Of a stretch of DNA of 15,906 nt, positions 7,613 to 15,254 are shown one piece after another. Position 1 is the stretch's first letter, and each line of letters opens with the position of its first letter. Origin of the DNA: Solirubrobacteraceae bacterium (GTDB taxonomy: Bacteria > Actinomycetota > Thermoleophilia > Solirubrobacterales > Solirubrobacteraceae); the NCBI GenBank assembly GCA_024710825.1, contig JANJUA010000304.1, positions 1 to 15,906 of the forward strand, read 5' to 3'. Position numbers and translations under genes: made by a program. The notes under the pieces are model-generated. The model did no database searches, had not been told where the DNA came from, and saw only the letters and a program-made list of their open reading frames with translations.

Positions 7613-10513
<2,901 letters not shown>

Positions 10514-10519
10514 TCCCCC

Positions 10520-10525
10520 ATGATA
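10520..10525 (-). promoter_or_regulatory. Candidate -10 element of the uvrA promoter
   Basis: TATCAT on the - strand matches five of six bases of the -10 consensus and ends six bases before the GTG of uvrA. Transcription would therefore begin at or next to the start codon. CTGACG (10546-10551), overlapping the divIVA stop, is a possible -35 but at a long 20-base spacing. Confidence 0.5.
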
Positions 10526-10531
10526 GGCAAT

Positions 10532-10545
10532 CGAACAGACGTTCC
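10532..10545. promoter_or_regulatory. LexA (SOS) box in the uvrA promoter
   Basis: CGAACAGACGTTCC on the + strand matches the Gram-positive LexA/DinR consensus CGAACRNRYGTTYC at every position. It sits in the 34-base gap between the divIVA stop and the uvrA start, between the possible -35 and the TATCAT -10, where bound LexA would block RNA polymerase. uvrA is a classical SOS gene, so site and context agree. Confidence 0.85.
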
Positions 10546-10547
10546 CG

Positions 10548-11327
10548 TCAGCCGGCCTCCCCGGCGACCGTCTCGTAGACCTCGTCGAGCAGCCGGTCGC
10601 GGTCGGGCAGGGTCTCGAAGTTCTCGGCCAGGTAGCGCTCGGTCTCCTCGCGCGCCTGCCCGTTGAGCGCCATGTTGAGGGCGATCAGGCGCGCGCCCTC
10701 CACATCCCCGTCGACCGCGGACGGCCGCTCCACGCGGAAGGGCTCGAACTCGGGCGCGGCCGGCATGGCGACGGGCCTCGCGCGCTCGGCCTCCGCCTCG
10801 ACGGCCGGCTCGGGGTCGGGCTCGAGCACGGCGCCCTCCCCGGCGCCGGCCGCCGCGTACAGCTCGCCCATGTTGGACTCGAGCAGCGACAGGTCGGCGT
10901 TGACGCGGTTGGCGCCGGTCCGCAGCGTCTCGACGAGCGTCCCCAGCTCCGTCTGCATCGCCTCGACGCGCTCGAGCATCTGCGACGTCGCGGTCGACAC
11001 CCGCCCGACGTGCCCCTGCGCGCGCTCGATCGCGTCCGCGCGCGTGCGCTCGGCGTCGCGGTCCGCGTCGTCGCGGATCTGGTGGGCCTCCTCCTCGGCG
11101 GAGCGCTCGATCTCCGAGGCGCTGGCCTCGGCCGCCTCGACGATCGCCCGGACCTGCTCGGACGCGGACTGCGCCAGCGACTCCCCGGAGCGCCGCTTGG
11201 CCTGCCGCGCAAGGGCGTCCATCTCGTCGGCCAGGCGGGCGAGGTGGGCGTCGACGGCGGCGGGGTCGTAGCCCCGGCGGCCGATGGGAAAGTCGCGCTT
11301 CTCGATGGCTTGGCGGTCGAGGGGCAC
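10548..11327 (-). CDS. DivIVA/Wag31-like coiled-coil protein
   Basis: A 259-residue protein with the DivIVA N-terminal motif at about 8-36 ([29 protein letters not shown]), which in relatives binds curved membrane at poles and septa. A long coiled coil (about 30-155), rich in Ala/Glu/Arg, follows. Next come an acidic Pro/Glu linker (about 163-205) and a conserved-looking helical end ([27 protein letters not shown]...). The GTG at 11327 has GGAGG seven bases upstream. It is divergent from the Ada/AlkA gene and ends 34 bases before uvrA. A polar growth or division role is inferred from the family; it is shorter and more divergent than canonical Wag31, so I give no symbol. Confidence 0.85.
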
Positions 11328-11366
11328 TCTTGGTCCTCCGGAAGTTGCACACTGCTGGGAGGCGCA

Positions 11367-11372
11367 AGCCTA
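11367..11372 (-). promoter_or_regulatory. Weak candidate -10 of the divIVA-like gene
   Basis: TAGGCT on the - strand lies about 40 bases before the GTG and upstream of the GGAGG. It fits only the TAnnnT core and no good -35 is seen. The rest of the 11328-11427 divergent gap holds nothing else I recognise. Confidence 0.2.
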
Positions 11373-11427
11373 CGCGTCGGCGCGGCGATCCTCACGCCTG
11401 GACCGCGCGGTGCGTCGCCACCACACC

Positions 11428-12450
11428 ATGATCGTCGCCGTCACCACCACCGGGATCTACTGCCGCGAGGGCTGCCCGGCCCGCGCGCCGCTTGCACGCA
11501 ACGTCCGCGAGCTGCCCTCGGCGGCGGTCGCCGAGGCGGCCGGCTTCCGTCCCTGCCGCCGCTGCCTGCCCGCCGACGACGCGCCTCGGCTGCCGGTCGA
11601 GCCGGTGCGGCTGGCCGTCCGGCGGCCGTTCGCGTGGCGCGACCTGCTCGCCTGGCTCGACGCCCGCGCCGTCCCCGGAGTCGAGGCGGTGGGCGAGACG
11701 ACGTACGCCCGCACGACCGCCCACGGGACGGTCCGTCTGGCGCTCGACGACGACGGGGCGCAGCTCGACGGCGACGGCAACGACCTCCTCGACGCCGTCC
11801 GCCGCGCGCGCCGGCTGCTCGACCTCGACGCCCGTCCGCGGCGCATCGGCGGCGCCCTGCGCGCCGACCCTGCGCTGGCGCCGCTGGTCGCCGACCATCC
11901 CGGACTGCGCGTGCCCGGCTGCTGGGACCCGTTCGAGCTGACGGTCCGGGCGATCGTCGGCCAGCAGGTGAGCGTCGCGCGGGCCTGCGCGCTCGCCGGC
12001 GGCCTCGTCCGCGCCCACGGCGAGCCGCTCGAGCGACCCGTCGGAGCCCTCGAGCACCGCTTCCCGCGGCCCTCCGCCCTGGCGGACGCCGCCATCGCGG
12101 GCATGCCCGCCGCCCGCGCCCGGGCGATCCGCGCCGTCGCCGCCGCGTTCGCCTCGCCCGCACCGCCGGACCCCGCCGACCGAGAGGCCCTGTGCGCGCT
12201 ACCGGGCATCGGCCCGTGGACGGCCGCCTACGTCGCGATGCGCGCCGGCCGCGACCCCGACGCCTACCCCGACGGCGATCTCGTCCTGCGCCGCGCCGCC
12301 GGCCCCCGCGCCGGCCGCTGGCACCCGTACGGCGCCTACGCGGCCATGCACCTCTGGGCGGCAGCCTCCGCCGCCCCACGGCGGCGGCGCACGCGCCAGG
12401 CCAGCTCGTCCAGCAGCAGCGCCGCGACGACCGGCACGGTCGCCGGGTAG
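11428..12450 (+). CDS. Ada zinc-domain / AlkA DNA-3-methyladenine glycosylase fusion lacking the AraC helix-turn-helix
   Basis: A base-excision repair protein for alkylated DNA. Numbering from ATG 11428 (340 residues), residues 1-50 are an Ada methyl-phosphotriester domain with all four zinc cysteines: Cys12 (the acceptor position), Cys16, Cys43 and Cys46. The AlkA N-terminal domain follows at about 58-165 (RLAVRRPFAWRDLLAWLDARAVPGVEAV), then the HhH-GPD glycosylase domain with hairpin LPGIGPWTAAYVAMR (258-272) and catalytic Asp284 in YPDGDLVLRR. The usual AraC-type domain of about 100 residues between the Ada and AlkA parts is absent. About 12 residues between GDLVLRR and the final RWHPYGAYAAMHLW are also missing relative to typical members. 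The frame is open back to ATG 11284 and GTG 11410 is possible; none has a good ribosome site. The Ser/Arg-rich tail overlaps the convergent membrane gene by 115 bases. Confidence 0.82.
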   Translation: MIVAVTTTGIYCREGCPARAPLARNVRELPSAAVAEAAGFRPCRRCLPADDAPRLPVEPVRLAVRRPFAWRDLLAWLDARAVPGVEAVGETTYARTTAHGTVRLALDDDGAQLDGDGNDLLDAVRRARRLLDLDARPRRIGGALRADPALAPLVADHPGLRVPGCWDPFELTVRAIVGQQVSVARACALAGGLVRAHGEPLERPVGALEHRFPRPSALADAAIAGMPAARARAIRAVAAAFASPAPPDPADREALCALPGIGPWTAAYVAMRAGRDPDAYPDGDLVLRRAAGPRAGRWHPYGAYAAMHLWAAASAAPRRRRTRQASSSSSSAATTGTVAG

Positions 12451-13151
12451 GGTCCGCCGCCGCCGGCCAGCAGCGCCCCCTCGACCAGCATCAGCGCCAC
12501 GGTGAGCCCCGCCACGCGGAGCTGGCCGCGCGGCCGGGCCGAGGCGATCGCCCCGACGATCCCGGCCACGAACAGGTCGCCGTAGCCCAGCGTGAACGTG
12601 CCGAGCGCGACGTGCGAGAGCTCCGGCAGCGCGCCCACCTGCGCCTGCGACAGCGCGGCCGCCGCCTCCTCGACGCGGCCGTCGGCCACCAGCACGACGT
12701 CAGCGATCGCCAGCGCCGTGATGCCGATCACGACGCGCCGCGTCCCGCCCAGCCGCACCAGCGCGGCCCCGAGCGCGACGGCGCTCAGCGCGCACAGCAG
12801 CGTCGTGCCGAGCTGGCCGGCGAAGCTCTCGGGCCCAGCGAACGAGGCGAGCACGAGCACTCCGACGACGGCGGCCCACTCGGGCCGGGCGCCGCGGGCC
12901 AGGCGCGTGGCGGCGAGCAGCGCGAGCGCGGGCACGGCGACGACCGCGAGGCCGGTGACCAGGTCGGCCGCCTCGGGGCGCCAGGCGAGCAGGAGGACGG
13001 CGGCCGCGAACAGCGTCGGCGGAGCCAGCCACAACCAGCGCGCACAGGGTCGGACGGTCGTCGCGCGAGGCAGCGCGACCGTCAGACCCTGTACCACGGC
13101 GAGGCCGGCACACGACGACACGTCCAGGGCGCTGAGGCCTTGGAAGAGCAT
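12336..13151 (-). CDS. Polytopic membrane protein with presenilin/signal-peptide-peptidase-like GxGD motifs
   Basis: A 271-residue, strongly hydrophobic protein. By eye I count nine membrane segments: about 10-28, 40-57, 62-83, 91-105, 114-133, 138-156, 181-204, 211-230 and 236-252. Asp151 lies in helix 6 (AIADVVLV), GYGD at 189-192 in helix 7 (TLGYGDLFVAGIVGA), and PAT at 236-238 in helix 9 (YPATVPVV). Presenilin and signal peptide peptidase place YD, GxGD and PAL in helices 6, 7 and 9. The Tyr before the first Asp is Ala here and PAL is PAT. A basic tail (WRVRRRR) follows. The gene is 81 bases downstream of uvrB on the same strand. No ribosome site precedes ATG 13151. Protease function is inference. 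A prepilin-peptidase relation is the main alternative, but the KL after GxGD is missing. Confidence 0.75.
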   Translation of the reverse strand: MLFQGLSALDVSSCAGLAVVQGLTVALPRATTVRPCARWLWLAPPTLFAAAVLLLAWRPEAADLVTGLAVVAVPALALLAATRLARGARPEWAAVVGVLVLASFAGPESFAGQLGTTLLCALSAVALGAALVRLGGTRRVVIGITALAIADVVLVADGRVEEAAAALSQAQVGALPELSHVALGTFTLGYGDLFVAGIVGAIASARPRGQLRVAGLTVALMLVEGALLAGGGGPYPATVPVVAALLLDELAWRVRRRRGAAEAAAQRCMAA

Positions 13152-13171
13152 CGGTGCACACGTGCTACCCC

Positions 13172-13185
13172 GAACGCCCGCGTTC
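13172..13185. promoter_or_regulatory. Perfect 14-base inverted repeat upstream of the membrane protein gene
   Basis: GAACGC-CC-GCGTTC lies 20 bases before ATG 13151, in the uvrB/membrane-gene gap. It could be an operator. The GAAC and GTTC half-sites are six bases apart rather than four, so it is not a standard LexA box. Confidence 0.35.
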
Positions 13186-13193
13186 TGCCCATC

Positions 13194-13210
13194 CCGGAGG
13201 CCCTCTCCGG
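13194..13210 (-). terminator. Hairpin after uvrB, possible terminator
   Basis: CCGGAG (13194-13199) and CTCCGG (13205-13210) form a perfect six-base stem with a five-base loop, 22 bases past the uvrB stop. No T run follows. If it terminates weakly, the membrane protein gene would be partly co-transcribed with uvrB. Confidence 0.4.
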
Positions 13211-13232
13211 CGCCCCGACGGGCCCCGCCCCG

Positions 13233-15254
13233 CTACTTGCTCCCGGCGGCCGCGTTCAGGTTCATCAGATCGCGCTGGAGCTCGCGGATCTCGTCGCGCA
13301 GACGCGCCGCGTACTCGAACTTCAGCTCGTCCGCGGCCGCCAGCATCTCCTCCTCGAGCTCGACGATCGTCCGCTCCAGGCCCGCCGCGTCCAACGGCTC
13401 GTCGCTCGTCTTGCGACGCCGCTTGCCGCGCCGGTTCGACGGCACCTTCGACTCGCCCTGGAGGAACTCGGTGATGTCCGAGATGCCCTTGACGATCGTC
13501 GCCGGCGTGATGCCGTGCGCCTCGTTGTAGGCGACCTGGATCGCGCGCCGCCGGTCGGTCTCCTGCAGCGCGACCCGCATCGCCTCCGTCTCCTTGTCCG
13601 CGTACATCACGACCATGCCGTGCTGGTTGCGAGCGGCGCGGCCGATCGTCTGGATGAGCGAGGTCTCGCCGCGCAGGAAGCCCTCCTTGTCGGCGTCGAG
13701 GATCGCCACGAGCGACACCTCGGGCAGGTCGAGGCCCTCGCGCAGCAGGTTCACGCCCACGAGCACGTCGTACTCCCCGAGGCGCAGGTCGCGGATGATC
13801 TGGATGCGCTCGAGCGTGTCGATCTCGGAGTGCAGATAGCGCACGCGGAAGCCCATCTCGAGCAGGTAGTCCGTGAGGTCCTCGCTCATCTTCTTCGTGA
13901 GCGTGGTGACCAGCACGCGCTCGGAGCGGTCGACGCGGATGCGGACCTCGTTCATCAGGTCGTCGATCTGGTTGCGCGTCTCGCGCACCTCGACCCGCGG
14001 GTCGACGATGCCCGTGGGCCGCACGATCTGCTCGACGACCCGCGCCGAGTGCGCCCGCTCGTAGCGGCCGGGGGTCGCGGAGACGAACACGAGCTGCGGC
14101 GCGATCGAGAGGAACTCCTCGAACGTCTGCGGCCGGTTGTCCAGCGCGCTCGGCAGCCGGAAGCCGTAGTCGACGAGCGTCTGCTTGCGCGAGCGGTCGC
14201 CCTCGTACATGCCGCCGATCTGCGGAACCGTCTGGTGCGACTCGTCGATGAACACGACGTAGTCGTCGGGGAAGTAGTCGAGCAGGCAGTACGGGCGCGC
14301 GCCCGGCTCGCGGCCGTCGAGGATCCGCGAGTAGTTCTCGATGCCGTTGCAGAAGCCCATCTCCCGCAGCATCTCCATGTCGTACTGCGTGCGCTGGCGC
14401 AGGCGGTGGGACTCGAGCAGCTTGCCCTCGCTCTCGAGCTGGGCGCAGCGCTCGTTGAGCTCGCGGCCTATCTCCGCGACCGCGCGGTCGACCGTGCCCT
14501 CCTTGACGTTGTAGTGCGTCGCCGGCCAGATCGCGACGTGCTCGAGGTCATCCGCCAGCAGCTCGCCCGTCAGCGGGTCGAAGCGCTGGAGCCGCTCGAC
14601 CTCGTCGCCGAACAGCGTCGCCCGGTAGGCGGTCTCCTCGTAGGCCGGGAAGACCTCCAGCGTCTCGCCGCGCACGCGGAACGTGCCGCGGCCGAGCGCC
14701 GTGTCGTTGCGCGTGTACTGGATCGAGACGAGCTTGCGCAGGAGGGCGTCGCGGTCGATCTCCTCGCCGCGCTTGAGCACCTGCATGTTCATCTCGTAGG
14801 TCTCCGGGGAGCCGAGGCCGAAGATCGCCGAGACGCTCGCGACGATCAGCACGTCGCGGCGGGCGAACAGCGCCGCCGTCGCAGCGTGGCGCAGCCGGTC
14901 GATCTCCGAGTTGATCGCGGAGTCCTTCTCGATGTACAGGTCCCGGCTGGGGACGTACGCCTCCGGCTGGTAGTAGTCGTAGTAGGAGACGAAGTACTCG
15001 ACCGCGTTCTCCGGGAAGAACGTGCGGAACTCGTTGCAGAGCTGGGCGGCCAGCGTCTTGTTGTGCGCGAGCACGAGCGTGGGCCGTTGGACGGCCTCGA
15101 CGGTGGCGGCCATCGTCATCGTCTTGCCTGTGCCCGTGGCCCCGAGCAGGGTGAGCCCGCGCTCGCCGGCCTCGATGCCCTCGGCGAGCGAGGCGATGGC
15201 CTTCGGCTGGTCGGCCGTCGGGCTGAACGTGCTGTCGAGCTTGAAGGGCGGCAC
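13233..15254 (-). CDS. uvrB: Excinuclease ABC subunit B
   Basis: The helicase-like subunit of nucleotide excision repair that verifies damage handed over by UvrA and recruits UvrC. The 673-residue length is normal. Walker A is GATGTGKT at 38-45. The beta-hairpin that clamps DNA is visible ([25 protein letters not shown], about 90-113). Motif II DESH is near 337, and motifs V/VI appear as [33 protein letters not shown] and [11 protein letters not shown]-terminal UVR domain ([25 protein letters not shown]) that contacts UvrC is present. The GTG at 15254 is preceded directly by GGGAG, and by TACCGT seven bases upstream; no other start fits the conserved [17 protein letters not shown]. No LexA box is seen upstream, unlike uvrA. 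Confidence 0.98.

Follow-up and report, generated by a model that had tools for sequence, protein, structure and literature searches.

Background

Presenilin, an enzyme linked to Alzheimer's disease, cleaves proteins within the membrane. It forms peptidase family A22A, next to A22B with signal peptide peptidase (SPP) and the SPPL proteins, and the features that mark membership are a fold of nine transmembrane helices (TM1 to TM9), a catalytic Asp in each of TM6 and TM7, a YD pair in TM6, GxGD in TM7 and PAL at the start of TM9. SPP and SPPL have their N-terminus outside and take type II substrates, while presenilin is inverted (available sections of PMC7768045, PMC7366577 and PMC2947513). In bacteria such as E. 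coli, signal peptides are cleared by SppA, oligopeptidase A and RseP, according to the available sections of PMC9360617. Is there also a bacterial protein of the presenilin kind? Here we analyse a gene for a 271-residue membrane protein in contig JANJUA010000304.1 of a Solirubrobacteraceae bacterium; "the window" below means the whole stretch of 15,906 nucleotides that was analysed, and its source genome comprises 444 contigs and 3.04 Mb and is 90% complete. An earlier note, made from the sequence of the window, had described the product as a presenilin/SPP-like protein next to uvrB, with nine hydrophobic segments, Asp151 in the sixth, GYGD in the seventh and PAT in the ninth. The observation is confirmed and the interpretation supported: the protein is a membrane protein with a predicted presenilin/SPP fold in which Asp151 and Asp192 most likely form an SPP-like di-aspartyl site for intramembrane proteolysis (probability about 0.7). 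A literature search of the open-licence part of PMC brought up no paper about the family. The words "bacterial presenilin" occurred only in PMC8396450; the available sections of this lipid study refer to a homologue of presenilin and name no such family.

Predicted fold and conserved residues

The G+C content at third codon positions is 94.9% in the presenilin-fold gene and 98.4% in uvrB, which fits what is expected for a gene of this genome. Homologues in other genomes maintain the reading frame, and the 13 closest relatives are 65-76% identical to the window protein; for these three reasons we regard the gene as real. The same genome carries a paralogue (C301:2494-3222, 36% identity) that retains both Asp, GFGD and PATVP.

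The predicted structure of the window protein has the presenilin/SPP fold, by a wide margin over unrelated folds, and its match to presenilin and SPPL2a is nearly full-length. The helices assigned by DSSP in the model span residues 8-26, 38-57, 61-84, 90-103, 110-135, 137-156, 190-203, 209-228 and 238-270, so that the nine segments of the earlier note reappear as model helices, with Asp151 within TM6, Gly189-Asp192 at the opening of TM7 and Pro236-Thr238 at the start of TM9 (coordinates in Table 1). Two short strands, 180-183 and 186-189, immediately precede the GxGD Asp in both models. In the models of the archaeal homologue PSH, as given in the available sections of PMC9282858, TM6a lies at H171-E177 and strand beta2 at A213-G217; positional counterparts of TM6a and of the substrate-docking strand are listed for the window protein in Table 1.

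How strictly are these residues kept? Two sets were counted. Alignment A2 has 97 rows: besides the window protein, it takes in 96 of the other 119 among the homologues listed. The second set consists of 79 distinct TM6-TM9 cores from genomes, reached from 105 starting rows by merging identical cores and omitting one locus in the wrong frame (L049), which, read separately, shows AVADASLV, GYGD and PATVP. The columns invariant in the 97 proteins include D151, D192, G189, P236, A237, T238, P240 and P176. Among the 79 cores, D151, D192, P176, T238 and P240 are each found in 79/79, next to 77/79 for G189, 71/79 for G191, 76/79 for P236 and 78/79 for A237. The invariance of both Asp, for which the earlier note had proposed a homologue alignment, is beyond chance, and the Asp pair outlasts the glycines. 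In diverged members, mostly of other families of the class, the GxGD place reads GWLD, GWMD, GYAD, DYGD or EYAD; the loci L087-L095 and L106, which come from other families of the class and show GWLD, GWMD, GWGD or EYAD there, keep both Asp and the TM9 Thr-x-Pro. Thus GxGD is present in the window protein and lost in some divergent members.

Two usual presenilin features are absent, as the earlier note had also seen. The window protein has Ala at position 150, and across the 79 cores the residue before D151 is A, V, I, L, T, G or S, mostly Ala, Val or Ile in relatives and never Tyr. PAT stands in place of PAL, with Thr in 79/79. The x of GxGD is aromatic throughout, with Tyr in 63 cores, Trp in 9 and Phe in 7. 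What the analysis as a whole shows is a conserved, lineage-restricted bacterial family that has an invariant Asp pair and for which the presenilin/SPP fold is predicted.

Membrane topology and proposed activity

Averaged over 172 rows, the number of Lys and Arg residues is 0.10 at the N-terminus, 2.46 in loop 1-2, 0.27 in loop 2-3, 1.95 in loop 3-4, 0.59 in loop 4-5, 0.80 in loop 5-6, 1.11 in loop 6-7 (31 residues), 2.66 in loop 7-8, 0.09 in loop 8-9 and 6.90 at the C-terminus. High and low values are clearly set apart, loop 5-6 being the one exception: its charge is weak across the family (3 such residues in the window protein). The positive-inside rule predicts a topology with the N-terminus outside and the C-terminus inside, as in A22B SPP, and this charge-based orientation agrees with the resemblance to the SPP form that had been pointed out from the residues around GYGD.

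What would such a protein do? Asp151 and Asp192 would form a di-aspartyl site that cleaves peptide bonds within the membrane. In the predicted orientation, the active site would face the outer leaflet and suit membrane segments with a cytoplasmic N-terminus, so intramembrane proteolysis of such segments is the putative activity; candidate substrates are N-anchored proteins and the signal peptides that remain once a protein has been exported. The unwound substrate may pair with the strand just ahead of GxGD, and the start of TM9 with its PAT may close the site, Thr238 replacing the Leu of PAL. In a bolder reading, the family would be a bacterial branch of its own within the presenilin fold, and its active site would have been re-wired: the two Asp and the Thr in place of the PAL Leu are strict, the aromatic residue of YD would have moved to the x of GxGD, and the second Gly can be lost. 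The protein would then be a signal-peptide-clearing aspartyl protease with the job that SPP does in eukaryotes. All parts taken jointly, this reading is possible but somewhat doubtful.

The most serious alternative is a non-catalytic relative that kept the presenilin fold and uses the buried Asp pair otherwise, as a chaperone, channel or transporter. It would explain why Tyr never precedes the TM6 Asp, why Thr takes the place of the PAL Leu in all 79 cores and why the second Gly of GxGD is lost in 8 of them; one clade has the metal transporters MgtE and Nramp as neighbours, and the protease activity of the family is itself a prediction. However, what is strictly kept in very diverged members is both Asp, Pro176 ahead of the strands and the TM9 Thr-x-Pro, and not the glycines. 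These residues count against a non-catalytic relative because catalysis would select them, and dead proteases usually lose a catalytic residue. The choice between catalysis and a dead relative is thus argued from residue conservation, by which we consider the non-catalytic relative unlikely.

If the protein is active, it would represent the presenilin/SPP enzyme in a small bacterial form, and what varies naturally in the family (YD missing, PAT where PAL is usual, GxGD lost in some members) would reveal which parts of the active site catalysis needs. It would also raise the question whether the fold was acquired from archaea or retained from an ancestor. The prediction is testable because the group has named isolates (Capillimicrobium and Conexibacter); Capillimicrobium parvum has the homologue P0018 and a Conexibacter sp. 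the homologue L039.

Sequence relation to described families

The window protein has no match up to E 10 in Pfam, the A22 and A24 models included, or in NCBIfam, and searches of PDB by sequence and by profile gave no match. Among 97 and 15 members of the family, no A22 or A24 model of Pfam matched up to E 1; the Pfam matches seen were scattered and weak (best E 0.0011 and 0.004, respectively), with no Pfam family common to more than three members. The protein therefore falls outside the Pfam profile cut-offs of PF04258, PF06550 and PF01080, and the protein-family libraries searched do not recognise the family. Of the checks proposed in the earlier note, the profile search against A22 and A24 yielded no significant result.

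The profile-profile comparison of the family with 44 archaeal PSH relatives by hhalign gave a probability of 4-6%, centred on the GxGD stretch (GTFTLGYGDLF in the family, GAFVMGMGDLI in PSH). The score reached 26.5; the reversed alignment scored 9.4, and 40 column shuffles gave at most 18.5. Since the locally aligned part covers 18-22 columns around GxGD in two comparisons and 55 in the third, the score is not taken as proof of homology; it is consistent with a relation. When the alignment is forced to full length, D151 is also paired with D162 of PSH. The PSH alignment is shallow: it comprises 44 of the 120 proteins listed, none of them less than 58% identical to PSH.

Distribution

A search with one sequence found at least 189 homologues, and none of the 120 listed carries a functional name; a profile search reached at least 1331 proteins. 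Both numbers are lower bounds because each search scored only about 8000 candidates. Among genomes of relatives, 43/101 match at E 0.01 when the source genome is counted too, and across the class Thermoleophilia 77/299 at E 0.001. In a sample of the phylum, a 15-row profile at E 0.001 matched 8/396 genomes, all within the class. The single protein at E 0.01 matched 13/396, five of them outside the class; those five matches are short (E 8e-4 to 6e-3), disappear with the 15-row profile and were treated as chance. In what was sampled, the family is restricted to this one class.

Forty loci come from named genome records, and their titles are Solirubrobacterales or Solirubrobacteraceae, Conexibacter, Thermoleophilia, or unplaced Actinomycetes, Actinomycetota or Actinobacteria, with two exceptions. 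One, titled Marmoricola (L064), contains a homologue on a long branch. The other, titled Chlamydiae (L069), has the same MgtE-Nramp neighbours as a locus titled Actinobacteria (L062), pairs with it at 100% support and falls inside a clade of Solirubrobacterales loci in a tree of 76 rows (duplicates and pieces below 200 aa left out). Because both neighbours and tree place match Solirubrobacterales-type loci, its label is probably a binning error, that is, a mis-binned contig.

A mobile or viral origin was considered and rejected. No relative was seen in viral contigs, where none of 39 pattern matches was confirmed, in phages, searched with the window protein, or in plasmids, searched with P0122 only.

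Genomic neighbourhood

As the earlier note stated, the presenilin-fold gene is next to uvrB, which it follows on the same strand. Over positions 7613-15254 the window has the row uvrA, DivIVA-domain gene, Ada/AlkA-type open reading frame (ORF), presenilin-fold gene and uvrB, so both UvrAB halves flank the presenilin-fold gene. The Ada/AlkA-type DNA repair ORF (11284-12450, plus strand) is convergent with the presenilin-fold gene, and their 3' ends overlap by 115 bp. In a same-genus genome (G002), a DivIVA-like gene recognised by eye from its translation lies beside the homologue (L097, 2901-3722), and by eye it occupies the place of the window's Ada/AlkA-type ORF.

Table 1. Coordinates of the presenilin-fold gene, its conserved elements and two neighbouring genes in the window
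Feature	Positions	Strand	Remarks
Gene of the presenilin-fold membrane protein	12336..13151	minus	271 aa, ATG start; stop codon counted in the coordinates
Asp151 codon, first putative catalytic Asp, TM6	12699..12701	minus	invariant in 97/97 aligned proteins and 79/79 cores
Residues 159-169, short helix after TM6, positional counterpart of TM6a	12645..12677	minus	DSSP of the model
Residues 180-189, positional counterpart of the substrate-docking strand	12585..12614	minus	DSSP of both models
G189-Y190-G191-D192 codons, GxGD with second putative catalytic Asp, TM7 start	12576..12587	minus	conservation
P236-A237-T238 codons, PAT at the place of PAL, TM9 start, followed by V239 and P240	12438..12446	minus	conservation
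uvrB, same-strand neighbour	13233..15254	minus	Pfam UvrB domains; 81 bp from the presenilin-fold gene
DivIVA-domain gene	10548..11327	minus	PF05103, E 2.4e-8

Might the protein then be a dedicated protease of a neighbouring product or pathway, which by clade would be phosphoenolpyruvate carboxykinase (PEPCK), Mg/Mn transporters, or DNA repair or DivIVA? PEPCK is beside the gene in 24/71 loci, and the 40 loci with wider flanks account for 21 of these. Distances were measured in 21 PEPCK loci. In 15 of them, the PEPCK stop is followed on the same strand by the first in-frame start after 18-141 bp; of the other six, one has it at 225 bp, two have frames open before the PEPCK stop, and three have an insert of 1.7-1.8 kb. 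MgtE and/or Nramp occur in 9/71 loci, and uvrB, adjacent in the window, is found at a distance of 2-3 kb in L097 and likewise in L032/L099, apparently two copies of one contig (both 24,494 bases). However, the neighbours are clade-specific: the 21 PEPCK rows form a single clade with 100% support, MgtE and Nramp accompany another, and the clades have no neighbour in common, a pattern that speaks for a general role and against a dedicated one. Nor is any of PEPCK, UvrB and Nramp/MgtE an obvious single-pass substrate, since PEPCK and UvrB are soluble and Nramp and MgtE polytopic. We therefore regard a dedicated protease as very improbable; as each clade has different genes around it, our guess is that the protein clears signal peptides in general and does not serve a single substrate.

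Within the PEPCK clade, a convergent downstream gene encodes a very conserved protein, about 187 aa long and containing two CxxC pairs, whose copies are 88-93% identical to that in L034. Loci with this protein and PEPCK are L007, L009, L010, L033-L043, L047, L048, L050, L052, L054, L058, L061, L065, L067 and L070.

Comparison with known systems

Peptidase family A24, with prepilin peptidase and the preflagellin peptidase FlaK, resembles the window protein as bacterial intramembrane Asp proteases with a GxGD motif, but its helix order differs from that of the presenilin fold and its motif is GxGDxKL. That the protein belongs there rather than with presenilin is hardly credible: although the only match of PF01478 in the genome lies inside the family paralogue (C301:2887-3153, L107), its 13.8 bits are below the 26.5-bit cut-off, no prepilin peptidase above that cut-off was seen in this 90%-complete genome, PF01478 matches neither the window protein nor the 97 homologues, GYGDLFV has LF instead of Lys-Leu after GxGD, and nine helices with Asp in TM6 and TM7 match presenilin and SPPL2a over nearly the full length.

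Compared with SPP and SPPL (A22B, PF04258; SPPL2a, 9k93), the window protein is without a Pfam match and has Ala for Tyr before the TM6 Asp and PAT for PAL. From presenilin (A22A, PF01080; PSEN1 in gamma-secretase) it differs in its opposite predicted topology, in the lack of a sequence match, in its altered YD and PAL and in being bacterial. The archaeal PSH (PF06550; 4hyc, 4hyg, 4y6k) differs in sequence, as the low hhalign probability indicates, and keeps YD in 44/44 relatives. It also differs in distribution: no genome among 396 Actinomycetota was above the PF06550 cut-off (11 weak matches; the Haloferax and Methanosarcina controls worked), whereas the presenilin-fold family is present in a sample drawn alike. 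PSH, an active enzyme, appears to have PPL at the place of PAL, so the PAL motif may not be strict. Because YD, PAL and the Pfam models fail, the protein is not to be filed as a member of A22; a separate family that shares the presenilin/SPP fold and most likely works like SPP is the better description.
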